Source of the DNA: Thermoplasmatales archaeon
Lineage (GTDB): Archaea; Thermoplasmatota; Penumbrarchaeia; Penumbrarchaeales; Penumbrarchaeaceae
DNA length: 34,206 bases
NCBI GenBank assembly: GCA_030595715.1
Contig: JAUVCN010000021.1
Location: forward strand, 1 to 34,206
Reading direction: 5' to 3'
Below are positions 6,795 to 31,302 of the stretch, in pieces; the first letter of the stretch is position 1; each line of letters starts with the position of its first letter. The notes below the pieces were generated by a model. That model was given only the letters and a program-made list of their open reading frames with translations, was not told the origin of the DNA and did not search any database. Both the position numbers and the translations under genes were made by a program.

Positions 6795-9077
6795 GTGAGA
6801 AGATACCTGCCGTGCCTTCTGGCATTGATGTTGATGACAACGTTGATCACTCCTTCAAGCGGTGAAGAGGAAATTGGAGCTCCAACAAGGGCCGAGGGGA
6901 ACATACTGTATGTCTCGGAGACCGGGTCCACATGGTCCAATATATCTGATGCGATCGACAATGCCACCTCCGGTGACACGATAATGATAGCACCCGGTAA
7001 TTATTCATCAGGATTCTTGTTATTGAAGGACTCGATAAATATAATCGGGAATCATACCCAGGGAGATGTCAATATCAAACACATTGGCTCGGAGGCCATC
7101 ATTGGCATTTCAAGCGACCGGTCTAATATTTCCGGATTGAATATCATTGGCGAAGGGACACACCTATTTGCTCTGATGTGCAGTGCATCCAACAACGTCA
7201 CGTTCAGGGATATTGTTATCAGGTCTCTTGTATCGGATGGATTTTTCCTCAGGGACTGTTATGATATCAACATTGAAGGAATGGAAATTAGCTCGGGGAT
7301 ACATCATCCGATGGAGATGCATGATATTGACAGGATGATGATGAAGAACTTCTCGTTCGATACCATCGGTTCAAGATACTCTGTTGGCATCTCGGGTGGA
7401 TGCTACGATATCACCTATCTGAACGGTTCGATCTCCATGAATGATGAGTTCTCTATCGTTTTCAGGACATTGGATGGATTGGACCTGACCATTGATGATG
7501 TTGATACAACGTATCAAGATGGATTCATCAAGATGGAGATGGGGGAAGTTGAGATATTCGATTCCATATTCAATTTTGAAGATGTCATCATTGACTCCAC
7601 GGATGTGAACGATACCGTCAAAGTATTTTTCAGGAAGGATATCAGAGCGTATGGAGAGGACAGATATGGGAGGATGGGGAATATATCTGGTGTGGAATTG
7701 AATCTCACCACAGATGCCGAAATAATGTACAGGACACCGTTCTATGGGGGAACGGATGATGCAAACATCAATCTTTCATACAGAGGCCCGTTCTCATTCC
7801 TTTCAAGGAACTATACGGGAGGAGGTTTCCCATCCACAGCGAACGAAGCTTACCTTCAAGCATATTATCCGGAAGCTGATATGAATGGTTCTTTAGAGAT
7901 AATGGATCTGAACCTATCCAACACTGATCCTATAATTATTGAGTTCAGGGACATCTGGTTCACCAATGGAACCATCTTTGGCCAGGTGAAATACGATGGA
8001 GGACCTCTTAATAACACTCCTGTTGCCAATGCATCTGTTCAGTTATTCATTCCTTTAAGTGCAGAGGATCTTAAAGTCTTTAGATTGAATCCAATTCCAG
8101 ATTACAGTATTGGAAATCTTCAATGGGCACATACAAATTCAACAGGCCATTATGAATTCATGAATATCTCCTTTGGACATCATCTCGGTATTACCATCGG
8201 TCAAGAGGACATGGTGATAAGAGATGGGAACATTTCAGGTTATTATCATGAGGGAGTTGGATTTGCTCATATTCTGAGAGAAACATTACATAAATCATAC
8301 AGTTATATTGTTTATTTCATTGATACTACGGGTCAATTTCCAGATACTCAGATCAATATCTCAGTCCCATACTACGAATACATTCCACCCATGGAAGGAC
8401 CTATCTCCGGGACAGTCAAATTCAATGATAAAGGTCCGAAGGCAAATGAGACCGCTCCTAATGTAACGGTGTCCTTGTTCAACATCACCGGAGACAGGAT
8501 CGGAGAAACCCTCTCCGATGAGAATGGGAACTATACATTTTCCAACATCACGTTCGGAGAAGGCTATGAATTAAGAGCAATGCCATCTCCTGAGGACCTT
8601 GGGATCAACAATAACAGAACCGGATATCTGTTCTGGGACGGTTCCGGGTTCGATCATACGGGAGATACCGTCTTCAATATATCCCTTAAATATTTCCAGT
8701 ACGTAGAACCGGTGATCAAACATCCGAAAGTATTCATCATCGATGATAACAACGACCCCCTCGACCATGTAATGGTAACGATCACTACAGGTGAAGATGA
8801 GTTCACAGCATTTACCAACGAAGATGGTATCGCCGAGTTCAGGGACATTGATGGGATCGAACTCCCGGATGGTGCGGTATTGAAGGCTGAAAAAGATGGA
8901 TATACCACCATCGAATGGAACCAGGGAGATGGGATCCCGAAGATGGAAGAGGAACCCAAAAGGGGAGATGACATCCTCCTTGTATGGGTACTCATAGGAA
9001 TGATCATCCTGATACTGGGATTCGGAATGTATCTTATGATGAAAAAAGGCAAATCCGAAGGTCATCACGAGGAATAG
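6795..9077 (+). CDS. secreted, membrane-anchored surface protein: NosD-like beta-helix plus carboxypeptidase-regulatory-like domains
   Basis: 760 residues. It has a cleavable-looking signal peptide (RRYLPCLLALMLMTTLITPSSG) and a right-handed beta-helix region of the NosD/pectate-lyase type (about 34-330), opening with the typical LYVSETGSTWSNISDAIDNA and GDTIMIAPGNYSSG. Two or three beta-sandwich domains of the carboxypeptidase-regulatory kind follow (about 390-520 and 535-640, each with GxVKxxxxGP and GNYTFSNITFG-like strands), then a final domain (HPKVFIIDDNNDPLDHV). The C-terminus is one membrane helix (VWVLIGMIILILGFGMYLMM) and a short basic/His tail. Many N-X-S/T sequons suggest glycosylation. 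The start is GTG with a purine-rich GGGGGGAAAG upstream. The domain order and ending match the next gene, so the two are paralogues. Ligand or role unknown. Confidence 0.8.
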   Translation: MRRYLPCLLALMLMTTLITPSSGEEEIGAPTRAEGNILYVSETGSTWSNISDAIDNATSGDTIMIAPGNYSSGFLLLKDSINIIGNHTQGDVNIKHIGSEAIIGISSDRSNISGLNIIGEGTHLFALMCSASNNVTFRDIVIRSLVSDGFFLRDCYDINIEGMEISSGIHHPMEMHDIDRMMMKNFSFDTIGSRYSVGISGGCYDITYLNGSISMNDEFSIVFRTLDGLDLTIDDVDTTYQDGFIKMEMGEVEIFDSIFNFEDVIIDSTDVNDTVKVFFRKDIRAYGEDRYGRMGNISGVELNLTTDAEIMYRTPFYGGTDDANINLSYRGPFSFLSRNYTGGGFPSTANEAYLQAYYPEADMNGSLEIMDLNLSNTDPIIIEFRDIWFTNGTIFGQVKYDGGPLNNTPVANASVQLFIPLSAEDLKVFRLNPIPDYSIGNLQWAHTNSTGHYEFMNISFGHHLGITIGQEDMVIRDGNISGYYHEGVGFAHILRETLHKSYSYIVYFIDTTGQFPDTQINISVPYYEYIPPMEGPISGTVKFNDKGPKANETAPNVTVSLFNITGDRIGETLSDENGNYTFSNITFGEGYELRAMPSPEDLGINNNRTGYLFWDGSGFDHTGDTVFNISLKYFQYVEPVIKHPKVFIIDDNNDPLDHVMVTITTGEDEFTAFTNEDGIAEFRDIDGIELPDGAVLKAEKDGYTTIEWNQGDGIPKMEEEPKRGDDILLVWVLIGMIILILGFGMYLMMKKGKSEGHHEE

Positions 9078-9240: not shown

Positions 9241-12200
9241 ATGAAAATGACAAATGTAGCGATAAGCTTGATCCTTTTGGCATCAATGTCAGGGGGCCTC
9301 ATTTTGGTCGCGGAGGATGCTGGAGCGGATCAACCAATAGCTCCCACGACAAGATATGTCGCAACTTCCGATTCTACCTATACATCCGTTCAGGATGCAA
9401 TAGATGATTCGGCAGAAGGTGACATGATATACATTGCGAACGGAACATACAACGGGCAGTTGAACATCGGCACCAGTCATCTGCACATCGAGGCGAACTA
9501 CACCGACGAGGTGAAAATAACCCCTGATGTGACCGGACCGACAGCATATGTTGGAAGTGTGACAAATATTACCCTGGTGAACATCAACTTCACATCCCCG
9601 GACTCACAGGCAATGAGGGTTCACCTCTCAGATAATATTACGATGATAAGCTGCACCTTCTGGTCAGGCGGAGGAACCGCAGGTTCATTGTTCATCGACG
9701 AGAACGAAAACATCACCATAATGGGTGATCTCTCCACCGGTTTCACGGTGATCCACTCGGAAAGTGATTTCAGTGATGCACTGAAGATACAGGATTCCGA
9801 GTTCATCTTCTGCTATATTGCACAGATCGAATCCCGGGGGAATTCCGCTGCTGCTGTGGCATTATACAATAAAAATTCCTACGTGGTCATCGCAATGGCT
9901 TCCATTGGTGCAAAAGGTATGAACTCGGATGCCATCGAAGTTGACACCGTCGACTACGGCATGGCATGGGGGATCCTGCCGATATATACCCAGGATATCG
10001 TGGATATCAATTCTGGAAGGTTCATTACAATGGGTGTCAACGTCCCTGATGCGGATGTAAGGGTAGGTTCCGCTGCTGAACTCGGAGTGTTCAATGAGAG
10101 ACTCGTCATCGTCATGGATGAGAATGATGACCCCATCGAGGGAGCGGACATGAAGATGGTCAACAGCTGGGAAGGAGAGATATTTGCCACATCCCATTTT
10201 GGCGGCGTGGAAGGGAAGTCCGATGATGGGGGAGAGTTTGATCATATCCCTGTCCTTAACAGGATCTTCCTGGGTTCCAATACGCCCACCTGGGGTCAGA
10301 ACGACATCACGGTCTACTATGATGGCGGAGATTTCCCGGTTACCATGGCAACGCGGGTGGATGCGAACACATCCGATGATCTGGAGATCACACTTGCCGA
10401 TTTCGAGATACCTGAAGAAGCTGTAAATGTTAAAGCGGAGACCATTTCACACGAGCAGATAGATCTCTCCTTCGAGGCATCACCTGCACTCGATATCGAT
10501 CATTACGAGATATGGGTCGATTCCGGAATGGGATCGGAATGGGATCTGAATACAACTATAGCGGGAACTTACCCTTATTTGGGGATGGTTCCTGATATGA
10601 ACTACAGCTTCAAGGTGATCGCGGTAGATGATATGGGGTATGGCTCTGATGGCATAACGGTCTGGAACATGACCTACCCACCGGTGAACGGGACCATCGA
10701 GGGAATGGTCAAATACATGGGCGGCCCCATGGATGGAATGCCTGCCGTGGGAGCCACAGTTACCCTTGGTCATTCTATCATGGAGTTATTGATAACGACC
10801 ACTGTCAACGAGACCGGGTTCTATTCCTTCGATGAGGTCAAATTCTCGGATGGGTACCTAATGAACGTTGAACCCGTGGACGTCGTTGAAGATATGGGGA
10901 CAGGGTCCGGTTACATCTCCTGGGAAGGAGGATTCGAGCACACTGCACCTCTGGTCAAGAATGTATCGATCCCATACTACACTTATGACAGCGATGAGAT
11001 ATCAGGGATGATCATCTACAGTGGAGGTCCAATAGATGGTATGAACGCCACCAATGCAACCGTTTTCCTCTACAACGAGACAATGGTGGAGATCGAAAAT
11101 ACTACTGTGGGCGAAGACGGCATGTATCTCTTTTCGGATATCGAGTTCGGCATCAACTACACACTGAAGGCCACACCTGTTTCCGCTGTCCCGGACATGG
11201 GAACGGGATCAGGATATGTATCATGGATGTGGACGTTCAACCACACAGGATCCCTTGAAAAGAATATCAGCCTGTCTTACTACGATTATCATTCAGATGA
11301 TATCAAGGGAAAGGTCATCTACATGGGAGGAGACAAAAATGGCCTTAACGCCACCAATGCAACCGTTTTCCTCTACAACGGGACAATGGTGGAGATCGCA
11401 AATGCCACGGTAGGCGAAGACGGTATGTATCTCTTTTCGGACATCGAGTTCGGCATCAACCACACATTGAAGGTCATACCCGTTTCCGCTGTTGAGATGG
11501 GGGGCACAAAATCCGGTTATACGATGAACATGACAGAACTTTTCAACCATACGGGTATACTGACGCAGGACTTCTATGTGCAGTATTACCTCTATGTCGA
11601 ACCCGCCCCTACAACAGGTTCGATCTCGGGAACCGTCATCTATGAGGGAGGAGCAAAGGATGGTACGGTCATCTCCGGTGCAAAGGTATCCCTAATTGAC
11701 GGGGAGGGAGTATATATCAATACCACAACGAATGCGACAGGAGGGTATCTTTTCGAGGATGTTACATTCGGAGATTACGCCATCGAGGTGTTCCCGTCAG
11801 CAGCGGAACAGGGAGAGACCGATGTCAAGAGCGGTTACATGGGAAAAGAAGTGGCCGAATTCACATTTGATTCCGCAACAGGTATCGTGGAGGACGTATC
11901 CCTTGTGTACTACAAATATACACCACCGGTCACATCCCATCCAAGCGTGACCATCGAGGATGAGGATGGAGAACCGCTCGAAGGTGTTCTGGTAACCGTA
12001 ACGATCGGTGATAAGGAATACACTGCTACCACCGGTGCCGATGGTGTGGCCATCTTCGACCAACTCGAAGGAGGGGAGTTCCCTGAAGGGACCGAGTTCA
12101 AAGCCTCTCTCGATGATCATGGAACCATTGAATGGTCCGTGGGGGAGGATGTTCCAAATATGAAGGAGGACAAAGAAGAAGATAACACCCTGATATTTAT

Positions 12201-12285
12201 TCTGATAGCGGTTGTCATCTTGGTCCTTTTGATCGTTGTCTTCATGGCATTCAGGAAGAAGGATGACGGGGCATTTGAAGAGTGA
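9241..12285 (+). CDS. secreted, membrane-anchored surface protein with beta-helix, Fn3-like and four ~100-residue repeats
   Basis: 1014 residues. Signal peptide (about 1-29, ending at AGA), then a NosD-like beta-helix region that opens in the same way as the upstream paralogue (YVATSDSTYTSVQDAIDDS, GDMIYIANGTYNG). An Fn3-like domain sits near 395-480 (IDLSFEASPALDIDHYEIWV). Four ~100-residue carboxypeptidase-regulatory-like units lie at about 483-585, 586-686, 686-790 and 794-898. The last domain (HPSVTIEDEDGEPLEGV) matches the end of the upstream protein. One membrane helix (about 980-1003) and a charged tail finish it. Units 2 and 3 are nearly identical at DNA level over ~150 bp with a 300-bp offset, so this is a recent in-frame duplication. 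Very strong Shine-Dalgarno. It probably projects from the cell surface; a role in adhesion or the cell envelope is inference. Confidence 0.8.
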   Translation: MKMTNVAISLILLASMSGGLILVAEDAGADQPIAPTTRYVATSDSTYTSVQDAIDDSAEGDMIYIANGTYNGQLNIGTSHLHIEANYTDEVKITPDVTGPTAYVGSVTNITLVNINFTSPDSQAMRVHLSDNITMISCTFWSGGGTAGSLFIDENENITIMGDLSTGFTVIHSESDFSDALKIQDSEFIFCYIAQIESRGNSAAAVALYNKNSYVVIAMASIGAKGMNSDAIEVDTVDYGMAWGILPIYTQDIVDINSGRFITMGVNVPDADVRVGSAAELGVFNERLVIVMDENDDPIEGADMKMVNSWEGEIFATSHFGGVEGKSDDGGEFDHIPVLNRIFLGSNTPTWGQNDITVYYDGGDFPVTMATRVDANTSDDLEITLADFEIPEEAVNVKAETISHEQIDLSFEASPALDIDHYEIWVDSGMGSEWDLNTTIAGTYPYLGMVPDMNYSFKVIAVDDMGYGSDGITVWNMTYPPVNGTIEGMVKYMGGPMDGMPAVGATVTLGHSIMELLITTTVNETGFYSFDEVKFSDGYLMNVEPVDVVEDMGTGSGYISWEGGFEHTAPLVKNVSIPYYTYDSDEISGMIIYSGGPIDGMNATNATVFLYNETMVEIENTTVGEDGMYLFSDIEFGINYTLKATPVSAVPDMGTGSGYVSWMWTFNHTGSLEKNISLSYYDYHSDDIKGKVIYMGGDKNGLNATNATVFLYNGTMVEIANATVGEDGMYLFSDIEFGINHTLKVIPVSAVEMGGTKSGYTMNMTELFNHTGILTQDFYVQYYLYVEPAPTTGSISGTVIYEGGAKDGTVISGAKVSLIDGEGVYINTTTNATGGYLFEDVTFGDYAIEVFPSAAEQGETDVKSGYMGKEVAEFTFDSATGIVEDVSLVYYKYTPPVTSHPSVTIEDEDGEPLEGVLVTVTIGDKEYTATTGADGVAIFDQLEGGEFPEGTEFKASLDDHGTIEWSVGEDVPNMKEDKEEDNTLIFILIAVVILVLLIVVFMAFRKKDDGAFEE

Positions 12286-12426: not shown

Positions 12427-15375
12427 ATGATCAACAAAACTGTCTCGACCATTGTCTCTCTTTTCATGGTCCTTACGATGTGGACCCTGATGCCGGTTGA
12501 CGTCAATGTCGAAGGATCGGAAAGTTCGAACACGTCCGGGCAGACCATATGGGATCATGAGGTTCCGTTCAGGGGAATTAAACCTCTTGATGGTATCGCA
12601 ACAGGAGAGATATATACGGATAAACCGGGAGATGAGACGGTCATAACCTCCAGGGACGGAGGCACTTACATCATCTATCTCGAGGATGATCATTGGATCA
12701 AGGAGAAGATATGGGAATCGCCGGGACAGCAGCTCACACCGGCCATCGGCGACCTGAGGACCGACAAGACGGGAAACGAGATCCTTGTTGTCGGTCTCTC
12801 ATCCGGATCCGAAGGTGAGGAACCGGGAGATGGAACCGCAACGGTCCTTATCAGGGAGGGAACCTCCTGGGTCGCAGAACGAGCATACACCGATGATGAG
12901 CTCATTCATGGCTGTGCTATCGGTGATATTGATCCCACCATTCCAGGTGTTGAAGCGGTTTTGACCACTTTCAACCACACTGCTATGATGATCTGGTGGG
13001 ATACCGATCACTGGAACAGCTCGTTCATGTTCTCCGATGGTCACAATATCAGGAAGGCGATCATTGCCGATCTGATCGACACAAATGAGGGGAATGAAGT
13101 GATCTGCGTCTCCAAGTCGGGAAATGCAACACTTGCATATGGAACAGTGGACAACTGGACGTGGGAGAGGATATACCAGGGTGAAAGTCTGGCCAGGGTG
13201 GCAGTGGGCGATGTGGACCCCGATCCGGGTCTGGAGATATACCTGGGTCTGGATGTGGCAGACGGAAGGGTCATTGGTATGAAGTGGACAGGTTCTGAAT
13301 GGATCAACCAGACAGTATTCACTGACACTGACAAGAACAGAGGCGTCTGGACAGGGGATGTCGATCCCACAGTCCCCGGAAATGAACTTTACACCTTCGG
13401 ATACTCGACAAGGCTCGTTCAGGTTACCGGCAGTTTCGCCCTGGGATGGAACTCCAGGGAACTGTTCCGTGATGTGGCAAGGGGGCATGAGATCAGGGTC
13501 GGGGACATACATCCCGAGATCCCTGGAAATGAGATCGGAATTGTTGGTTATTCCAGTAATTTCACTGTTGTATATCCTTCGGAGTGGGTATATGATGTCC
13601 CATTTACCGGGACCGAACCCATTGACGGTATAGCAGTAGGTGAGATCTATCCTGACAGGAAAGGATCCGAGACGGTGATCACATCCCGAGATGGAGGAAC
13701 CTATATCAGCTACAGGGAAGACGGAAATTGGAAGAATGAGAAGATATGGGAATCTCCAGGGCAGCAGTTGACGCCATCCATCGGCGACCTGATCCCTGAA
13801 AGAGAGGGAAATGAGATCCTGGTTGTCGGTCTTTCCTCGGGAGATGAGAATAGCGATCCGGGAGATGGGACTGCAACCGTGCTTTATCGGGATGGAACAT
13901 CCTGGGTACCAACAAGAGCATTCACTGATGACTTTCTCATCCATGGATGCGATATTGGCGACCTTGACCCCAACCATGAAGGGATGGAAGCTGTTCTGAC
14001 AACCTTCAATTTCACAGCTGTGATGATCTGGTGGGAAGATGGTGAATGGCACAATGATCTGATATTCACTGACAGCCATAATGTCAGAAAAGCTGTGATC
14101 GCTGACCTCATCGACACACATGAGGGGAATGAGGTCATCTGCGTTTCAAAATCCGGAAATGCAACACTTGCCTATGGCACCACCGGGAACTGGATCGTTG
14201 AGAGGATCTATTCCGGGATCCCGCTTGCAAGGGTCGCCGTGGGCAATGTCGATCCGGACCCGGGGTTGGAGATATACCTTGGCGGTGATGTTGCCACCGG
14301 CAGTGTCATCGGCCTGAAGTGGACAGGTACCGAGTGGATCGATACGGTGGTATTCGAAGATACTGCAAAGAACAGAGGTGTCTGGACAGGTGATGTCGAT
14401 CCTGATGTTCCGGGACAGGAGCTTTACGCTTATGGATATTCCACAAAACTCACCCAGATAATCGATCCTTTTGGAACCGGTAGATCATCCAGGGAGATCT
14501 ACTCGGATACTGCCAGAGGACACGAGATCAGGATCGGCGACATTGACCCGGATAAAGGAGGAAATGAGATCGGAATTGTTGGATATTCCAAAAGGCTGGT
14601 TGTTGTTTCCCTGCGTGATGAGGGTGAACCTGTCGTCCCAACCTTGACAGGAGAAGGGGCGGCATCATTGAACCATGGCGAGTCAGCTTCTATTGACCTG
14701 ATGGTCGATGGTGAATCATACATGACCCTGGAGGTCTCCGAGATAGAGGGCGCAAGAATATCTCTGCATCCCGAATCTGTATTCATCAAGGGATCCGTCA
14801 AGCTGATGATAGAGGCTGAACATGTGAAGGAGGATATTACAGAGGATGTTACCATCACCCTCCATCATATCGGCGGGACCGTCACCCGAACCGTTTCCAT
14901 ATCGATCACTGGCGATAGTTCCGAACCCGAGGTGGATACGACCTCTGTCTCTGCAGGTGAGGCCATCACATGGGAAGAGCTCGTTAATGTTACCCTCTCC
15001 GAACCTGTGACAAGGTCCTCTTTCGGATCTGCGGTCGGATCGGACAAGATCGGACTGGAGGTCGAAGGAGTTGTTCAGAATGTCGTCTTCACACTATCCG
15101 AAGATGGATCTGTGATATCCGTCTCGATGACAGAGGATGTAGGTAGAGGAGATGCCATCCTGACCATCGGTGGTTTGATGGACCTGGCCGGAAATGAGAT
15201 GGAGACTTTCACACTTGACATCGAGATCAAGAAGGAAGAGAACGATGATCCGGGTTCTACCTGGCTTGTCATTCTCATAATTGCTGTCGTGCTGATCGTC
15301 CTGATCATGACCTTTGTATTCCTCGGAAAGAAAAAAGAGGATGAAGATGATGTACCTGACCTTCCCTCACAGTAG
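12427..15375 (+). CDS. secreted, membrane-anchored protein with two tandem seven-motif beta-propellers and an Ig-like domain
   Basis: 982 residues from ATG 12427 (AGGTGGT ribosome site; ATG 12394 would precede the likely transcription start). Signal peptide MINKTVSTIVSLFMVLTMW. Residues ~42-386 and ~387-730 are two tandem copies of a 345-residue module. Each contains seven G-(D/E)-(I/L/V)-x5-7-G-x-E motifs about 49 residues apart, such as IGDLRTDKTGNEIL, IGDIDPTIPGVEAV and VGDVDPDPGLEIY, which suggests two seven-bladed propellers of FG-GAP/VCBS kind. An Ig-like region of bacterial SbsA type follows (about 850-940, with DLAGNEM). One helix (LVILIIAVVLIVLIMTFVFL) and an acidic/basic tail anchor it. 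The motif aspartates could bind calcium. Binding target unknown. The next gene starts 12 nt after the stop. Confidence 0.8.
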   Translation: MINKTVSTIVSLFMVLTMWTLMPVDVNVEGSESSNTSGQTIWDHEVPFRGIKPLDGIATGEIYTDKPGDETVITSRDGGTYIIYLEDDHWIKEKIWESPGQQLTPAIGDLRTDKTGNEILVVGLSSGSEGEEPGDGTATVLIREGTSWVAERAYTDDELIHGCAIGDIDPTIPGVEAVLTTFNHTAMMIWWDTDHWNSSFMFSDGHNIRKAIIADLIDTNEGNEVICVSKSGNATLAYGTVDNWTWERIYQGESLARVAVGDVDPDPGLEIYLGLDVADGRVIGMKWTGSEWINQTVFTDTDKNRGVWTGDVDPTVPGNELYTFGYSTRLVQVTGSFALGWNSRELFRDVARGHEIRVGDIHPEIPGNEIGIVGYSSNFTVVYPSEWVYDVPFTGTEPIDGIAVGEIYPDRKGSETVITSRDGGTYISYREDGNWKNEKIWESPGQQLTPSIGDLIPEREGNEILVVGLSSGDENSDPGDGTATVLYRDGTSWVPTRAFTDDFLIHGCDIGDLDPNHEGMEAVLTTFNFTAVMIWWEDGEWHNDLIFTDSHNVRKAVIADLIDTHEGNEVICVSKSGNATLAYGTTGNWIVERIYSGIPLARVAVGNVDPDPGLEIYLGGDVATGSVIGLKWTGTEWIDTVVFEDTAKNRGVWTGDVDPDVPGQELYAYGYSTKLTQIIDPFGTGRSSREIYSDTARGHEIRIGDIDPDKGGNEIGIVGYSKRLVVVSLRDEGEPVVPTLTGEGAASLNHGESASIDLMVDGESYMTLEVSEIEGARISLHPESVFIKGSVKLMIEAEHVKEDITEDVTITLHHIGGTVTRTVSISITGDSSEPEVDTTSVSAGEAITWEELVNVTLSEPVTRSSFGSAVGSDKIGLEVEGVVQNVVFTLSEDGSVISVSMTEDVGRGDAILTIGGLMDLAGNEMETFTLDIEIKKEENDDPGSTWLVILIIAVVLIVLIMTFVFLGKKKEDEDDVPDLPSQ

Positions 15376-15387
15376 GTAGTTGAGAAA

Positions 15388-15990
15388 TTGAAAACGAACA
15401 CATTGCAGAAACTGGAAAAGGCCCTTTCGGAGGGCCTTGTCGATGAGGAGGTAATAGGGCTTCTTCTTGCGATAAATAACGTTGATGATGCGGTGACCAC
15501 CTCCTCCTGTTCAGGCAGGTTCCAGTTGATCCAGGTCCCCACGCTCGGAGACAAGTTGGGTTCGAACGTACTTGGCAAATGGCACCGTAAGGTATCAGCG
15601 GAAGAGGTCCTTGAAGCCCTTGGAAAATGGGACGGTACCGGACAGGTCCACCTTCTTGTCCAGCCCCTGCTCGTTCACATCCGCTGCAGGGATATCGAGA
15701 CCGCAGCGAAGCTCAGAACGATAGCACAGGAGAGTGGACTGAAGTTCTCGACCATCAGGTCCGTCAAGCTGGACAGAAAGGGGGGCGTCCAGGAATGGGG
15801 GGTGATGGTGGAGTTTCTCGGAACGGAAAGGATGGAGGTCCCTATCCACGGCATCCCAAGGGACCTTTTCGATGATATCATTCCACCTCTGGTCCACCAT
15901 GGGAATGGATTGATAGAAAGAACCAAGGACCATATCGACCATCTAGCACAGAGAATAACCTCGAAGGACCGATCGGCCAATGGTGAATAA
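15388..15990 (+). CDS. taw3: tRNA(Phe) wybutosine-synthesis methyltransferase TYW3/Taw3 family
   Basis: 200 residues, matching TYW3-family proteins in length and in the marker TTSSCSGR (37-44), plus later blocks resembling LLVQPLLVHIRCRDIETAAKL and the WGVMVEFLGTERMEVPI region. TYW3 N-methylates the tricyclic yW intermediate at G37 of tRNA-Phe; archaeal homologues take part in wyosine-derivative synthesis. The start is TTG 15388, only 12 nt after the preceding stop, with AGGTAG nearby; TTG 15403 is an alternative. No other taw gene is visible here. It may be co-transcribed with the unrelated surface-protein gene. Confidence 0.88.
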   Translation: MKTNTLQKLEKALSEGLVDEEVIGLLLAINNVDDAVTTSSCSGRFQLIQVPTLGDKLGSNVLGKWHRKVSAEEVLEALGKWDGTGQVHLLVQPLLVHIRCRDIETAAKLRTIAQESGLKFSTIRSVKLDRKGGVQEWGVMVEFLGTERMEVPIHGIPRDLFDDIIPPLVHHGNGLIERTKDHIDHLAQRITSKDRSANGE

Positions 15991-19412: not shown

Positions 19413-20648
19413 TCACATAGCATTCCAGTCGATCCATCCCTTATCCCTGAACTTCTTCGACAGGACCTTGAGAAGGATCGGTGTGAGCAGGGCCATTATG
19501 ATGGCATTGAAAACGACTGCGGAATAGAGGTCCCTGCCAATTATACCCGATTGGAGAGCTACACTTGCCAGTATAAGGTCAACGGCAGCCCTTCCGTTCA
19601 TACCTACCCCAACCAGCAGGGATTCCGCCCAGTTCAGACCTGATATCTTCGCCCCAAGCCCCGAACCAACCACTTTTCCAGTGAGGCCAAGGATCACGAT
19701 CAGTGGAACGAAGAGGGAAAGGGCCGCACCGGAAAAGGTAACAGAGTAACCCACCCATGCAAAGAAGATGGGAGCGAAGAACCCGAAGGAAAATCTCCCG
19801 AGGGAATCCCTCGTCCTTCTGTTCAGCGAACTCCTTATCGCCATGCCTCCAAGGAAGGCTCCGATCATCAGATGAAGTCCCATCAGATGAGCCATCACAC
19901 CGAAAAGACCTGCCATCAGGATGGTCAATCCGATGCCCTCGGTTGCCCTCATGTCCCCCATCCCCTTGTAGGCCTTCTTCAATATCTTTGGCATAAGGAA
20001 GAGGGCAGCCAGAACAAAGGTCATTGCCAGTATGACAGTTCCTCCCACCGAGAGGAGATTTGGAAGATGTCCTGTGGCAGACATTGAAAGGAGAATTGAA
20101 AGGACGACGATACCAATTATATCATCAACGATGGCGGCATTGATTATCGTCATTCCGAATCTGGTTCGTATACCCTCGATCTGTATCAATGTGGAAATAG
20201 AGAGGGCCACGGCGGTGATCGACAGGGCACCTCCGATATAGAGGGCCACCATTACATCTCCGAAGTAGAGATAGGTGCCTATGAATCCCAGTCCAAATGG
20301 GGCGATCACACCGAGAGAAGCAGTCACGATCCCGGTCTTGAAAGATGCCAGGAAATCCTTGATCCTCGTCTCCAGCCCGGATGAGAACATCAACATCACG
20401 ATAGCGAGGTCCATAAGGAACGAGATCTCCACTTCAACGGTCTCCGGTTTGAGATTCTCGATCACTCCATCCATCGGGAAAGATTCGAAAATAATACCTA
20501 TCCGGCCAAGTATCCCTATCAGAACCGGGCCGAACATGAGTCCGCCGAAAATATTCCCCACGATGGTGGGAAGCTTCAACTTCTCTGCAAGCTTACCGAA
20601 GAAGAGAGCTGCGATAAGCAGAAGCAGCAGATAAATGAAGTTGAACAT
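19413..20648 (-). CDS. cation/proton antiporter, CPA2 (Kef/Nap-like) family, copy 1
   Basis: 411 residues from ATG 20648, with 11-13 hydrophobic helices. Family features are the opening YLLLLLIAALFFGKLAEKL, the ion-binding aspartate pair in the middle (NAAIVDDIIGIVV), the helix LMGLHLMIGAFLGGMAIRSS and the late GMNGRAAVDLILASVAL. It lacks the C-terminal TrkA domains of KefB/C. It likely exchanges Na+ or K+ for H+ across the membrane. The longest ORF would start at ATG 20669, but a TATA box (TTTATAC, near 20676-20682 on this strand) lies just upstream of it. The start at 20648 suits a leaderless message and aligns with the start of the neighbouring paralogue. Same strand, 101 nt downstream of the second copy's stop. 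Confidence 0.88.
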   Translation of the reverse strand: MFNFIYLLLLLIAALFFGKLAEKLKLPTIVGNIFGGLMFGPVLIGILGRIGIIFESFPMDGVIENLKPETVEVEISFLMDLAIVMLMFSSGLETRIKDFLASFKTGIVTASLGVIAPFGLGFIGTYLYFGDVMVALYIGGALSITAVALSISTLIQIEGIRTRFGMTIINAAIVDDIIGIVVLSILLSMSATGHLPNLLSVGGTVILAMTFVLAALFLMPKILKKAYKGMGDMRATEGIGLTILMAGLFGVMAHLMGLHLMIGAFLGGMAIRSSLNRRTRDSLGRFSFGFFAPIFFAWVGYSVTFSGAALSLFVPLIVILGLTGKVVGSGLGAKISGLNWAESLLVGVGMNGRAAVDLILASVALQSGIIGRDLYSAVVFNAIIMALLTPILLKVLSKKFRDKGWIDWNAM

Positions 20649-20670
20649 ATGAGCCGTTGGTATCCGCATC

Positions 20671-20749: not shown

Positions 20750-21979
20750 TCAGTCTTCGACCCATCCTCTCTTCTGGAACTTCTTGTGTAGGAACTTCAT
20801 CAGCATCGGAGTGGTAATGGCCATCGTCGCTGCCATGATGACAACAGCGGAGTAGAGGTCCCTCTCGATGATGCCTGCCTGCAGAGCAACGGATGCAAGT
20901 ATCAACTCAACTGCGGCCTTTCCATTCATACCGACCCCCACAAGAAGTGATTCTGACCATTTCAAACCCGATATCTTTGCTCCGAGTCCTGCACCGATCA
21001 ACTTACCGGAGAATCCAAGAACGATAATAAGAGGGACAAGAGGTGATATTGCCAGTCCCGTGAATGACACCGAGAATCCGACCCATGCAAAGAAAACAGG
21101 GGCGAAGAACCCGAACGCCCATCTTCCAAGTGACTGTTGTGTCCTCTTGTTCAGGGAATCCCTTATGGCCATTCCTCCGAGAAATGCTCCTATCATAAGA
21201 TGAAGGCCCATTATATGAGCAATAACTCCGAATAGACCTGCCATGAGGATGCTGACACCCACCCTCTCGGTCATCCTGAGATCCGTCAGGTAGGAATACA
21301 TCTTCTTCAGAAGTCTTGGAACAACGAACAACGATAATAGCACGAAGATCAATGAAAGAGAGATCGTCCCCGCAATGGACAGGGTATTGAGCCTGCCACT
21401 TGAAGAGAACGAGAGCAGAACGGATAGGATCATTATTCCGATGATATCATCGACGATGGCTGCATTGATGATGGTCATACCGAAACGGGTTCGTACGCCG
21501 TCGATCTGGATCAAGGTCGCGATAGACAATGCCACTGCTGTGATGGATAAAGCGGCTCCGACATAGAAGGCGGTCAGCATGTCTCCTATGTACCAATACG
21601 CTCCGACAAATCCAAAGGTGAAAGGGACAATGACACCGAGGGCTGCCGTAAGGATACCGGTCCTGAAGGAAGCAATGAAATCCTTTATCCTCGTCTCGAG
21701 CCCGGAAGAGAACATCAACATGATGATGGCAAGGTCCATGAGGAAGAACACCTCGAGCTCAACCTCCCCCGGGTGAAGTTGGGTGGCAAGAACAGTGAAG
21801 CTATCGATATCGAATCTGCTTCCAAGAGAATCCAATATGAATATCAGAAAAGGTCCTGCGAATAGGCCCCCCACGATGTTCCCAACGATGGTTGGTTGTT
21901 TGAACCTCTCCGCTACCTTGCCGAAGAAGATGGCGCAGATCAGAAGGAGCAGAAGGTAGATCACAGCCTCCATACTCAT
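20750..21979 (-). CDS. cation/proton antiporter, CPA2 (Kef/Nap-like) family, copy 2
   Basis: 409 residues, a clear tandem paralogue of the downstream gene, collinear over its whole length. Shared landmarks are IYLLLLLICAIFFGKVAERF, LFMDLAIIMLMFSSGLETRIKDF-like helices, the NAAIVDDIIGIM aspartate pair, HLMIGAFLGGMAIRDS and VGMNGKAAVELILASVAL. The two differ mainly in the loop after helix 2 (here SRFDIDSFTVLATQLHP) and in surface charge, as expected for an old duplication with possible difference in ion or pH response. A TATA-like GTTAAAACATTT (about 22003-22014 on this strand) lies about 27 nt upstream of the ATG, so the message may be leaderless. Confidence 0.88.
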   Translation of the reverse strand: MSMEAVIYLLLLLICAIFFGKVAERFKQPTIVGNIVGGLFAGPFLIFILDSLGSRFDIDSFTVLATQLHPGEVELEVFFLMDLAIIMLMFSSGLETRIKDFIASFRTGILTAALGVIVPFTFGFVGAYWYIGDMLTAFYVGAALSITAVALSIATLIQIDGVRTRFGMTIINAAIVDDIIGIMILSVLLSFSSSGRLNTLSIAGTISLSLIFVLLSLFVVPRLLKKMYSYLTDLRMTERVGVSILMAGLFGVIAHIMGLHLMIGAFLGGMAIRDSLNKRTQQSLGRWAFGFFAPVFFAWVGFSVSFTGLAISPLVPLIIVLGFSGKLIGAGLGAKISGLKWSESLLVGVGMNGKAAVELILASVALQAGIIERDLYSAVVIMAATMAITTPMLMKFLHKKFQKRGWVED

Positions 21980-25058: not shown

Positions 25059-25409
25059 ATGGCGGATGTGATAGATCTCTCACTTGCCACAAGTGAACAA
25101 ATAGAAAAGGCATTGGGTGACAGGATCGAACAGGTAAGGCTATCTCGCAATATCACACAACAGATGCTTGCAGATGAGGCGTCTATTTCCCTGCGTACCA
25201 TTAGACGCCTTGAGAAGGGCGAAGGAACCTCACTTGATACATTCATCCGTGTATTGATAGCATTTGGAATTCAGGAGAATCTGAAGAATATACTACCTGA
25301 TCCGAACGCCCGCCCCATGGAGAGAGTTAGCAATTTGGGTTCGGAAAGAAAAAGAGCTCGCCCTACCGAAACGAATGAAAGCGATATCCCCTGGTCGTGG
25401 GGTGATTGA
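25059..25409 (+). CDS. hipB: HipB-like XRE-family helix-turn-helix antitoxin
   Basis: 116 residues. An XRE/Cro helix-turn-helix spans about 20-75: GDRIEQVRLSRNITQQMLADEASISLRTIRRLEKGEG, with the recognition helix at SLRTIRRLEKG. The C-terminal ~35 residues are polar and probably disordered, ending PWSWGD; in HipB proteins such a tail contacts HipA. It starts at ATG 25059, about 27 nt from the TATA box, so the mRNA is likely leaderless. It is followed after 4 nt by hipA. By analogy it represses its own promoter through the dyad at 25006-25027 and neutralises HipA. Confidence 0.85.
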   Translation: MADVIDLSLATSEQIEKALGDRIEQVRLSRNITQQMLADEASISLRTIRRLEKGEGTSLDTFIRVLIAFGIQENLKNILPDPNARPMERVSNLGSERKRARPTETNESDIPWSWGD

Positions 25410-25413
25410 GAAC

Positions 25414-26718
25414 ATGGTTACGACAAGTGCAAGAGTTATCCTCTGGGGAAAGCAGATCGGAGCGATCTCCTGGCTTGAGGATCGAGAGATAGGAGTATTT
25501 CAATACGACCCTGAGTTTCAAAGAAGTGGCATACAGGTGGCACCATTGTTGATGCCACTGAGAGAATTCCCATATGAGTTTCCAGCTCTGGCAAAGGAGA
25601 CCTTCAAAGGGTTGCCCGGACTCCTGGCAGACTCCATTCCCGACAAATATGGCAATGCAATTATCAATGAATGGCTAGCGTCTCAGGGAAGGACCCCTGA
25701 GAGCTTTAATCCGGTTGAAAGGCTATGTTATACAGGAAGAAGAGGCATGGGAGCCCTGGAGTTCGAACCAGCAACGATCGGACCCTCCGAAAGCAATAAC
25801 AACGTCGAAGTTAACAAACTCATTGATCTTTCAAATAGGATATTGGATGATAGATCGGACATTGGAGGTGCTTTAACAGGAATGGATGATACGGAGGCGA
25901 TACACGACATACTAAGGGTAGGAACCTCAGCAGGAGGCGCCAGGGCAAAGGCAATTTTGGCCTGGCATCCAAAAAGCAATGAATTTCGTTCGGGACAGGT
26001 CGAGATGGAAAGTGGATTCGAACAATGGATCATGAAGTTTGACGGAGTGGCCAACAACCGAGACAGGGAAATGACCGATCCATCGGGATATGGCAAGATA
26101 GAGTACACATACCACCTGATGGCAGTCAAAGCAGGGATCATGATGTCACAGTGCAGGCTTCATCATGAAGGGGGGAGAAGCCATTTCATGACAAAGAGAT
26201 TCGATCGAACATATGAGGGTGGAAAGATCCACATGCAATCTTTGTGTGCGATCGCACATTTCGATTTCAATCAACCTTCCAGCTATTCATATGAACAGGC
26301 CATCTTGACGATGAAAAAAATAGAGCTTCCACATGAAGATCTTGTTCAGCAGGTCCTGCGTACCATATTCAACGTTGTTGGTAGGAACCATGATGACCAT
26401 GTCAAGAACATTGCGTTTTTAATGAATAGAAAAGGGAGATGGAGGTTATCTCCTGCATTTGATGTCATATATGCCTGGAATCCATCCGGTTCTTGGACGG
26501 GTCGCCATCAAATGAGCGTGAATGGCAAACGTGAAGATATTGAACGTGATGATCTACTGGAACTTGCGAGGATCGCAGGTATCAAGAAGAAGAGAGCAAA
26601 TGGCCTGATAGATCGGGTTGAAGAGGCTTTCGATCACTGGTCAGAACTTGCTGCCTCCACCGGTGTTCCGGAAAAACTCATATCAGAGATACAGAGATAT
26701 TTATTGACAGACCTGTAA
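25414..26718 (+). CDS. hipA: HipA-like serine/threonine kinase toxin
   Basis: 434 residues from ATG 25414, which has a perfect GGTGAT Shine-Dalgarno (25401-25406) overlapping the end of hipB; the upstream ATG 25375 inside hipB is less likely. N-terminal HipA subdomain (VILWGKQIGAISWLED, KGLPGLLADSIPDKYG), ligand loop TSAGGARAK (171-179), substrate/C-terminal kinase core with NHDDHVKN (catalytic Asp at 327, metal-binding Asn at 332) and the DFG-equivalent PAFDVIYAW (Asp 350). All residues needed for kinase activity are present, and it is full length. In bacteria HipA phosphorylates glutamyl-tRNA synthetase and halts translation; the archaeal target is unknown. The HipBA type is unusual in archaea, so horizontal transfer is likely. 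Confidence 0.88.
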   Translation: MVTTSARVILWGKQIGAISWLEDREIGVFQYDPEFQRSGIQVAPLLMPLREFPYEFPALAKETFKGLPGLLADSIPDKYGNAIINEWLASQGRTPESFNPVERLCYTGRRGMGALEFEPATIGPSESNNNVEVNKLIDLSNRILDDRSDIGGALTGMDDTEAIHDILRVGTSAGGARAKAILAWHPKSNEFRSGQVEMESGFEQWIMKFDGVANNRDREMTDPSGYGKIEYTYHLMAVKAGIMMSQCRLHHEGGRSHFMTKRFDRTYEGGKIHMQSLCAIAHFDFNQPSSYSYEQAILTMKKIELPHEDLVQQVLRTIFNVVGRNHDDHVKNIAFLMNRKGRWRLSPAFDVIYAWNPSGSWTGRHQMSVNGKREDIERDDLLELARIAGIKKKRANGLIDRVEEAFDHWSELAASTGVPEKLISEIQRYLLTDL

Positions 26719-28932: not shown

Positions 28933-29166
28933 TTGCCAAACATCACACTATCAGTACCTGAAGAGATCCACACCATAATGAAGCAACATGGTGAGATCAG
29001 ATGGAGTGAGGTCGCCAGAAGGGCCATATCAGATTATGCAAAAAAATTAGCCCTTCTCGATGCTCTAACTAAAAACAGTGAACTTACCGAAGAGGACATA
29101 ATGGAGCTGGATGAGAAGGTAAAGAGAGGGATCTATAACCATTACAGAAGGAAGCAATCCTCATGA
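28933..29166 (+). CDS. vapB: VapB-like ribbon-helix-helix antitoxin
   Basis: 77 residues. The N-terminus reads as a ribbon-helix-helix: strand [11 protein letters not shown], helix HTIMKQHGE and helix [21 protein letters not shown]. The acidic/basic C-terminal helix ([26 protein letters not shown]) probably inserts into the toxin active site. The start codon is TTG 28933 with AGGTGA 6-7 nt upstream. The end overlaps the toxin start by 4 nt (ATGA), the usual coupling in VapBC operons. The dyads at 28898-28922 are the likely autoregulatory site. Confidence 0.8.
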
Positions 29167-29615
29167 AAGTGGTCATTGATTCCAATCGTATTATGGCGGG
29201 TCTCATTAGAAATTCCACTTCTAGAGTAATTATCCTCAGTGAAGAATTCGATTTCATTGCACCTGATTTCCTTGTCGCCGAGATCGATAAATACAGGGAT
29301 TATCTCATGAGGAAGTCCAAACAGACCGAAAGGGAATTTGATCTTACCATGTTAACCCTATTTCAAAGAGTAGAACTCATCCCTGAAGATGAATTCATTG
29401 ATAGCATGAAGATAGCCGAAGAAGTCATGAGAAGTGTTGACATAAAAGATGCCCCATTCCTTGCTGTTGGTTTGGCCTGTAAAACAGAAGGGATCTGGAG
29501 TGAGGACAAGGATTTCGATAAACAGAATTTGCTCATCAGGTATTCAACAAGGGACATGATCGACTTCCTTGTGGAAAATCCTTCACAAAGAGATCAGAAA
29601 ATGCATCACCGCTAA
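29163..29615 (+). CDS. vapC: VapC-like PIN-domain endoribonuclease toxin
   Basis: 150 residues. PIN-domain acidic residues are all present: D6 ([12 protein letters not shown]), E40 (FLVAEIDKY), D96 ([12 protein letters not shown]) and D115/D117 (WSEDKDF). They would hold one or two Mg2+ ions for RNA cleavage, with tRNA or rRNA the usual target of VapC. The N-terminal [10 protein letters not shown] and the fold order fit the PIN_3 subgroup. ATG 29163 overlaps the vapB stop. Complete and apparently functional. Confidence 0.82.
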
Positions 29616-30254: not shown

Positions 30255-30668
30255 TTATATCTTCATTATCGGAATATCCGTTACCTTGTCAAATTCCCTA
30301 TCCGCCGTTATCAGAACATCTGCATTGTTGTTCAAGGCTGTTGATAGACAGAACGCATCACCCCATGCAAAAGGAGAGCTCGCCCTGGCATACGAGTGTT
30401 TCTTCACCGATGACATGATCGCAGTATCGATATCAGGTGGAATGATCGATATCCGGGATTCCCTTATCCAGACAACATACCTGTCCGCGTCTTCTTCCGA
30501 TGCGATCCGGGTCAATGCCCTGTGGAACTCCGCAAGGTTCACGGTGGAGATGATACCTTCCGACCTTCCTTCCTCGATCTCGGTCATTGCCGAATCCAGA
30601 TCTGGATCCCGTCTCTGTTCCACGATGTAGATCACAAGGGCTGAAGCATCGAGGCAATATCTTCTCAT
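30255..30668 (-). CDS. PIN-domain endoribonuclease toxin (VapC-like), partner of an AbrB antitoxin
   Basis: 137 residues with a complete PIN active site: D7 (RYCLDASALVIYI), E47 (TVNLAEFHRAL), D104 (FAWGDAFCLSTAL) and D123 (LITADREFD). The start ATG 30668 overlaps the antitoxin stop by 4 nt. Expected to cleave RNA when released from its antitoxin. The truncated remnant at 24633-24938 derives from a close relative of this gene, which shows the locus has been copied within the island. Confidence 0.85.
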   Translation of the reverse strand: MRRYCLDASALVIYIVEQRRDPDLDSAMTEIEEGRSEGIISTVNLAEFHRALTRIASEEDADRYVVWIRESRISIIPPDIDTAIMSSVKKHSYARASSPFAWGDAFCLSTALNNNADVLITADREFDKVTDIPIMKI

Positions 30669-30916
30669 GATCTACCCTCGCTCTCCTCATCCAAGAGGTC
30701 CTCATCCTTGATATCCCTCAATATCTCTCTTACATCGGAACTGATGGGCAACGATCCCGCCATCTTTGATATTGGATCCCTGGGAACCTTGATCATCACT
30801 ATCTCCTTTCCTTTTCTAAGAAAGGAAATTGTATCCCCAACTTCAAGATCGGACCCCTCTCTTATGTCCCTTGGAATTGTTATTCTGAACCTGGGATCGA
30901 TGTTAGAGCAAGTCAT
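30665..30916 (-). CDS. AbrB/SpoVT-type antitoxin
   Basis: 83 residues from ATG 30916, which has GGTGGT 3-4 nt upstream; the longer frame from 31012 adds a polar, Asn-rich stretch that overlaps the promoter and is unlikely to be translated. The AbrB swapped-hairpin DNA-binding domain is clear: IDPRFRITIPRDIREGSDLEVGDTISFL. The acidic C-terminal tail (DIKDEDLLDEESEG) should wrap the PIN toxin. Translationally coupled to the toxin by a 4-nt overlap. Its own dyad lies upstream at 30948-30977. Confidence 0.82.
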   Translation of the reverse strand: MTCSNIDPRFRITIPRDIREGSDLEVGDTISFLRKGKEIVMIKVPRDPISKMAGSLPISSDVREILRDIKDEDLLDEESEGRS

Positions 30917-30947
30917 AATACCACCAATGTGGGCATTATTAGTATTA

Positions 30948-30977
30948 TTACCCGCACTATATCTATTTTGCGGGTAA
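30948..30977. promoter_or_regulatory. AbrB/PIN operator dyad spanning the TATA box
   Basis: TTACCCGCA (30948-30956) and TGCGGGTAA (30969-30977) form a perfect 9-bp inverted repeat with a 12-nt AT-rich spacer that reads AGATATAG on the transcribed strand, a TATA candidate. The likely target of the antitoxin. Confidence 0.65.
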
Positions 30978-31012
30978 CATTGTGAATTCTTCTCCATCTT
31001 CCCATTATTCAT

Positions 31013-31302
31013 ATATTCACCCGATCATATATTCATGAGTAACGATCAGAGGTTGAGAGGTTACATTTAACACAGGAGAATGGAGCTTTCTGAATGTGAC
31101 GATCTGGAATTGCCATAACATAGGATCGAGGATGAAAAACATGGAGATTTGGGAGACACTTGTAGTTTTCATCTTCCTGTGTCCATAGGAATTCTTCAGC
31201 GCATTAGTCGACGGTACTTGAAGAATTTAAATAATCTAAAAGCGTTATATAATTATCATAATCTTTTTTTTAATGAGAATGAAATTGAAAGATGGTGAGA
31301 CG
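31013..31302. other. intergenic region with inverted repeat, TATA box and a short possible leader ORF
   Basis: Contains AATTCTTCA (31190-31198) and TGAAGAATT (31219-31227), a perfect 9-bp inverted repeat with a 20-nt loop, and the TATA element TTATATAATT (31245-31254), which predicts a transcription start near 31277 for the next gene. A short frame ATG 31132 to TAG 31188 (18 codons, hydrophobic) has no supporting evidence. Confidence 0.45.

Follow-up and report, generated by a model that had tools for sequence, protein, structure and literature searches.

A tandem-propeller surface protein of an uncultured Thermoplasmatota archaeon, with propeller copies alike within genes and a conserved set of basic residues

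The window, i.e. the whole 34,206-nucleotide stretch of DNA analyzed here, lies on contig C193 of the 3.07 Mb draft genome G000, which belongs to an uncultured Thermoplasmatota archaeon, and encodes a tandem-propeller protein of 993 amino acids (aa). It is a surface protein with a signal (judged by eye), an immunoglobulin (Ig)-like stalk and a single membrane helix. Its two propeller copies are more similar to each other than to their counterparts in other species, although the gene keeps a conserved locus beside TYW3, and both copies retain the same invariant arginine, lysine and histidine residues. Judging from these sequence features, we propose, with a probability of about one half, that the protein acts as a two-site receptor or adhesin for a negatively charged ligand, and that its copies are homogenized by recombination within the gene. 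An earlier note, made from the sequence of the window, had called duplicated full propellers on one anchored surface protein unusual. The word "anchored" agrees with a helix predicted near the C-terminus. "Unusual" seems too strong, since VCBS proteins with signal sequences and, in some cases, several propellers and Ig-like domains (PMC8023676, in the text available) and bacterial FG-GAP proteins with 14 repeats (PMC3192720, likewise) have been published. While the duplicated architecture is already known, the apparently homogenized copies and the basic ring go beyond the earlier note.

Duplication of a whole propeller and its predicted fold

The two halves of the propeller region align by BLASTP over 341 residues with 70.4% identity and no gaps (E=7e-176), and direct repeats with a spacing of 1035 bp and 70-74% identity (D1, D3, D4) were found independently in the DNA, which bears out the strict 1035 bp offset claimed in the earlier note. 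Its 345-residue module holds as a period, as the copy offset is exactly 345 residues, but the homologous block is 341 aa. Seven motifs per copy were likewise found, in a longer form than the proposed G-D/E-hydrophobic-x-G-x-E, namely [GA]-[DEN]-hydrophobic-x(3-6)-G-x-E. They start at residues 71, 119, 177, 225, 272, 321 and 370 in copy 1 and at 416, 464, 522, 570, 617, 666 and 715 in copy 2, 345 residues later throughout. This pattern, which had been fitted to the sequence beforehand, occurs 14 times, whereas in 2000 shuffles of the protein it was counted 0.10 times on average and never more than 3 times; among three other window proteins, two contain no match and one contains a single match.

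Blades inside one copy share about 24% identity on average, whereas the same blade across copies shares 54-83%. Therefore, the unit of duplication is the whole propeller, unlike the amplification of single blades described as a route to new propellers in the available text of PMC9218822, and fourteen recent copies of one blade are ruled out. An assembly artefact is also ruled out as the source: 30% of residues differ between the copies, and the same architecture was found complete in three further genomes and, in a fourth, divided between two contigs.

With the alignment of nine modules as input, AlphaFold2 gives a model of module 1 with 28 strands (predicted local distance difference test score, pLDDT, 94.1; predicted template modeling score, pTM, 0.92). 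We read the strand list as a closing strand (model residues 6-13, residues 53-60 of the protein), six groups of four and a final three; the module is predicted, with high confidence, to consist of seven four-stranded blades closed by the N-terminal strand. The number of blades equals that of the motifs, and the mismatch that would have spoken against the propeller of the earlier note did not occur. In VIA-align, the module superimposes on the propeller of aldos-2-ulose dehydratase with a Z score of 34.6 and a root-mean-square deviation of 3.0 over 338 of 349 residues, and several WD40 propellers tie with this match within Z 1. Foldseek places CRTAC1 first and the dehydratase second. Because the Z values of the enzyme and of the WD40 scaffolds tie, we rejected an assignment of function from structural matches.

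Module 2 was modeled solely inside the full-length prediction, which is weak (pLDDT 67.7, pTM 0.44). The last blade of copy 2 ends with its third strand, and copy 2 is preceded by an equivalent of the closing strand, residues 398-405, which probably closes module 2. This strand directly follows the last strand of module 1, and therefore hardly any linker would separate the two propellers. Most fold matches of the full-length model are multi-propeller proteins; these matches, among them 1l0q at Z 20.3, are used only as a sign of several propellers. One 14-bladed ring instead of two propellers is disfavored, as a single module folds alone with high confidence in the prediction and single-module paralogs exist.

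Among known kinds, the VCBS/FG-GAP propellers seem to be nearest. We provisionally regard the protein as VCBS-like, because the tryptophan of the CD loop, the Ig-like partners and the fold agree, while the AB metal loop fails and the direct profile match is of low probability. Shared with this group (Pfam PF13517), as far as the available text of PMC8023676 describes it, are seven four-stranded blades, a signal sequence, Ig-like domains and, sometimes, several propellers. In addition, the G-D turn in loop AB is retained, and the fourteen-blade alignment that the earlier note had suggested reveals a tryptophan at the C-D turn in 12 of the 14 window blades. In contrast to the group, all 14 AB loops read [GA]-[DEN]-x...G-x-E, without the metal-binding DxDxDG, and blades 3-7 bear a basic ring where strand A begins. 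The missing DxDxDG lowers, but does not exclude, VCBS membership, because none of the motifs of the group is universal according to the same text.

Searches by sequence gave nothing above the cut-off for the window protein in Pfam, NCBIfam or PDB: PF13517 has no match up to E 1, and the best match among solved structures is an unrelated plant protein at E 0.33. Our literature searches on this protein turned up no paper. Among eight related proteins, one passes the PF13517 (FG-GAP_3) cut-off, namely L039, a paralog in the same genome (27.2 vs 26.9 bits), and three match more weakly, including L054 at 18.9 bits. By hhalign, the module alignment runs in register over 315 columns with one canonical DxDxDG protein encoded in G000, at a probability of only 28.8%, and reaches 0.3% with a second canonical protein, of G010. 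The window protein adds a family unrecognized by the profile libraries used to a propeller group with mostly uncharacterized prokaryotic members. The class of the window genome (G000-G011) displays a marked FG-GAP_3 propeller expansion, with matches over the cut-off in all 12 genomes (46-145 each, lower bounds where some candidates went unscored) versus 2 of 14 control genomes.

Other known systems resemble the protein in part. The integrin alpha propeller and its bacterial homologues are alike in having seven blades, an extracellular location and tandem 14-repeat forms (PMC3192720, in the text available), but the window blades have neither the aromatic Cage motif nor DxDxDG. Five residues before the blade motif, at the strand A position to which the Cage motif assigns an aromatic residue ahead of a Gly, module 1 carries D, L, H, R, A, R and H in blades 1-7; this equivalence of positions was judged by eye. 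The aldos-2-ulose dehydratase propeller (4a7k), the best VIA match, is also of VCBS type, but is 12-13% identical to the module. Aldos-2-ulose dehydratase is a fungal enzyme carrying other domains. The archaeal surface-layer protein 1l0q likewise carries a propeller, although, by its structure title rather than by sequence comparison, it has tandem YVTN-type blades and a PKD domain. The AIP1 homologue 1nr0 contains, by its title, two seven-bladed propellers in one chain; AIP1 is an intracellular eukaryotic WD40 protein whose halves have diverged. Inspection of the 14 aligned blades by eye showed no recurring W-D pair where strand C ends, and no WD40 model matched in the Pfam and NCBIfam scans.

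Invariant basic residues of the propellers

Across the nine aligned modules, 76 positions are invariant, and eight of these are basic (H172, R220, K221, K241, R268, R316, R363 and H365 in module 1). All of them except K241 are located 4-7 residues before the blade motif in blades 3-7, which, by strand positions, places them where the innermost strand begins or immediately ahead of it. The range in question, 28 of 349 positions, holds seven of the eight basic residues that are invariant, but one of the 24 that are variable (Fisher p 1.8e-5). Since this range had been chosen after inspection, a scan of offsets was added: for the maximum over 41 offsets, none of 5000 permutations reached seven, both with labels shuffled among the basic residues and with labels shuffled among the invariant ones. 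Otherwise, acidic residues strongly predominate in the module (net -32).

Gene fragments outside the alignment keep the ring at 9 of 9 checkable positions, i.e. H, R, K and R in L056, R, R and H in L057, and R and H in the copy 1 fragment of L036. The ring series is missing in the nine single-propeller paralogs sampled, where single basic residues do occur. From the strand positions, the ring is expected to lie at the rim or entrance of the central channel, on its D-A loop face. The basic ring provides a concrete prediction about the ligand.

Similarity of the copies within genes

The genomes of relatives taken from named collections are metagenome-assembled genomes of Thermoplasmata/Thermoplasmatota archaea. 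Any match at E 0.001 was obtained in 15 of 57 genomes of relatives, a module profile match at 1e-10 in 14 of 389 genomes of the phylum, and the scans of viral contigs found no relatives. Complete double-propeller genes are present in G000, G001 (L034), G004 (L035) and G011 (L037). The gene of G005 is split, with its start on C272 and the last two blades of copy 1 plus the whole of copy 2 on C74 (L036), and G002 and G003 carry only contig-end fragments. A blade profile built from five proteins detects 14 blades each in L035 and L037, both full relatives, and 6-7 matches in one stretch, some individually weak, in 17 distinct other open reading frames (ORFs), which correspond to single propellers (660-910 aa, one of 2556 aa). 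The remainder consists of contig fragments with 3-4 matches, one 1241-aa ORF with four weak matches and stray single ones. The search for relatives with one or more modules, also suggested in the earlier note, has accordingly returned both double- and single-propeller genes.

In all six family genomes having both genes (G000-G005), TYW3 is the downstream neighbor of the propeller gene, and a zinc-ribbon membrane protein comes next; in G002, the C-terminal fragment of the gene adjoins TYW3. Both the propeller gene and TYW3 are absent from G006 and G007, and this joint absence suggests a missing contig rather than loss. Two contig ends of G002, C43 (L056) and C52 (L023), each carry the N-terminal start of a propeller gene and are 86% identical over 80 residues, which suggests that this genome has two such genes with contigs broken inside the repeat. 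L116 (G002:C15) encodes the stalk of the G002 gene with an extra segment, labeled CarboxypepD_reg-like by eye, before the membrane helix; the stalk may be exchanged between lineages.

In the module trees, the two window copies join each other (support 98/96 in one tree and 97/97 in the other), as do those of L037 in the first tree (83/97), where the second tree draws an open fork. For the congeners L034 and L035, N-terminal copy joins N-terminal copy and C-terminal joins C-terminal. A single clade of all N-terminal copies is rejected (approximately unbiased p 2.3e-32 with L037, 2.9e-5 without), as is one of all C-terminal copies (2.1e-5), and an old duplication without later exchange is ruled out by these tests. 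The trees leave out the fragments of G002 and G003 and the two-blade copy 1 fragment of G005. The G005 copies are 88% alike in blades 1-2 and 89% in blades 6-7, versus 65% (57 residues) and 78% between G005 and the same-side copy of its congener G003.

The similarity is uneven along the genes. Between L034 and L035, the sites supporting orthology are clustered (100 sites, largest gap 105 nt, p about 0.001 under a uniform expectation). In two patches of L035, the copies are 89% identical to each other, as opposed to 80 and 73% in the first patch and 82 and 78% in the second in the orthologue comparison with L034. The L037 copies are 75-96% identical in the interior and 60 and 67% at the edges. 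Some of this patchiness could stem from uneven constraint. Between the copies of the window gene, the nonsynonymous divergence (dN) is 0.23 and the synonymous divergence (dS) about 1.8, which is near saturation; for L037, the values are 0.09 and 0.54. Both copies are under purifying selection.

The cause of the similarity within genes is either homogenization, by gene conversion or unequal exchange, or repeated re-duplication. We consider it rather unlikely that each lineage re-made the double propeller from a single one, an alternative that concerns only the evolution of the pair. It also predicts the clustering of copies by gene seen in the window, L037 and G005, and single-propeller paralogs exist. 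However, the copy junction lies at the same structural point in all five genes, the gene occupies one locus beside TYW3 in the family genomes, at which no single-propeller gene was seen, and the divergence is patchy, with orthologous and homogenized stretches alternating in L034 and L035. The shared junction and locus are best accounted for by a single ancient duplication followed by exchange. Whole-propeller copies homogenized in this way would offer a test of why surface proteins with several propellers maintain equal sites.

Proposed role and surroundings of the gene

In the proposed receptor or adhesin, two VCBS/FG-GAP-type seven-bladed propellers would be carried by an Ig-like stalk that is anchored in the membrane at the C-terminus. 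Each propeller would present the same Arg/Lys/His ring at the channel entrance, contributed from one equivalent position of blades 3-7, and the two equivalent pockets might bind an anion; candidates are uronic, sulfated and phosphorylated glycans as well as acidic segments of surface proteins. Two sites on one arm would raise avidity. Bivalent binding, as suggested in the earlier note, is plausible from the sequences, since the same invariant residues are retained in the two copies and both are under purifying selection. Intragenic recombination, either conversion or unequal exchange, would keep the copies alike, which fits selection for two equal sites. In this scheme, we infer the channel-entrance place of the ring, the charge of the ligand, a binding instead of a catalytic role, bivalency and the precise mode of recombination. 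A more specific picture is a two-site surface receptor (or enzyme) in which the VCBS-type channel entrance was rebuilt as an Arg/Lys/His ring that accepts an anionic ligand, and intragenic recombination leaves the copies similar enough to be equivalent sites while the protein diverges between species; this we hold tentatively, at somewhat less than even odds.

Several points weigh against the receptor proposal. The module alignment has just nine rows from five genomes, four of which belong to one family, and blades 1 and 2 give no basic ring residues. The geometry of the ring is modeled from strand positions only, and a conserved charged channel entrance could instead be catalytic or structural. 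Since the full-length model is weak, the two pockets may face different ways. There is no characterized homologue.

If the ring were an active site, each propeller would be catalytic, for instance a lyase or dehydratase acting on an acidic sugar, and two copies would double the activity. The best whole-module match in VIA-align, second by Foldseek, is indeed the propeller of a fungal sugar dehydratase; the invariant H, R and K persist although the most distant modules are 37-39% identical to those of the window, which is typical of active sites; and catalytic families belong to the same propeller supercluster (PMC8023676, in the text available). Since non-catalytic WD40 propellers tie within Z 1, however, the dehydratase match says nothing about function. 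The sequence searches found no solved enzyme similar to the protein, and no carbohydrate-active family matched in the propeller in Pfam and NCBIfam scans. A surface enzyme seems unlikely to us. We judge it improbable that the protein is a scaffold or lattice subunit, whose propellers would pack against neighboring surface proteins and use the ring for folding or protein contact. In its favor, another anchored surface-protein gene precedes this one in G000, G002, G003 and G005, the class genomes are rich in FG-GAP blades as described above, and the surface-layer propeller 1l0q is among the full-model fold matches. Such a subunit, however, leaves unexplained why invariant basic residues stand at one position and are missing in the sampled paralogs, and in G004 no such upstream gene was found.

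The features of the gene are listed in Table 1. Translation likely starts at the second ATG, 12427, because the hydrophobic N-terminus comes right after it. Stalk domain 1 has no family match in the Pfam scan, and "Ig-like" is deduced from its strands and position. Over the region corresponding to stalk domain 2, Big_5 matches at E 5.8e-19 in the relative P0005 and at 0.0097 in P0006.

Table 1. Features of the propeller gene and its conserved neighbor (window positions).
Feature	Positions	Strand	Basis or remark
Tandem-propeller surface protein gene, 993 aa	12394-15375	+	ORF list and translation
Signal-peptide-like hydrophobic N-terminus, residues 12-41	12427-12516	+	Sequence, judged by eye
Predicted propeller module 1, residues 50-396, seven blades	12541-13581	+	AlphaFold2 module model and fold matches
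Module 1 basic ring: H172, R220, K221, R268, R316, R363, H365	12907-13488	+	Invariant in 9/9 modules
Predicted propeller module 2, residues 395-744	13576-14625	+	70% identity to module 1
Probable module 2 closing strand, residues 398-405	13585-13608	+	Homology to module 1 strand 53-60
Module 2 basic ring: H517, R565, K566, R613, R661, R708, H710	13942-14523	+	Module alignment
Stalk domain 1, Ig-like, about residues 750-840	14641-14913	+	Full-model strands, pLDDT mostly 67-89
Stalk domain 2, Ig-like/Big_5-like, about residues 842-947	14917-15234	+	Big_5 in relatives, full-model strands
Predicted membrane helix, residues 954-977, then short charged tail	15253-15324	+	Full-length model, sequence
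TYW3/Taw3 tRNA methyltransferase gene	15388-15990	+	Pfam E 3.9e-33; conserved neighbor, no part in the mechanism

On the opposite strand, an ORF of 440 aa lies inside the propeller gene (12799-14121, minus strand) and is probably a by-product of codon use on the sense strand. Directly upstream, two further anchored surface proteins (9241-12285 and 6795-9077) contain CarboxypepD_reg repeats in three and two stretches, respectively; the former also has internal tandem copies at a 303-bp spacing (10933-11492), and the latter has a weak NosD-like match. A further large surface protein (31273-34206), cut off by the end of the window, has at least 978 aa and a C-terminal hydrophobic helix recognized by eye.

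Genes likely to form toxin-antitoxin pairs encode a HipA-like kinase with a helix-turn-helix partner (25059-26718), a PIN_2 protein (29163-29615) and a PIN protein with a small upstream gene on the minus strand (30255-31012), which we read from its sequence as AbrB-like. Two adjacent, similar sodium/proton exchangers are encoded on the minus strand at 19413-20669 and 20750-21979; the latter matches Na_H_Exchanger at E 1.6e-48, and the former was judged by sequence.

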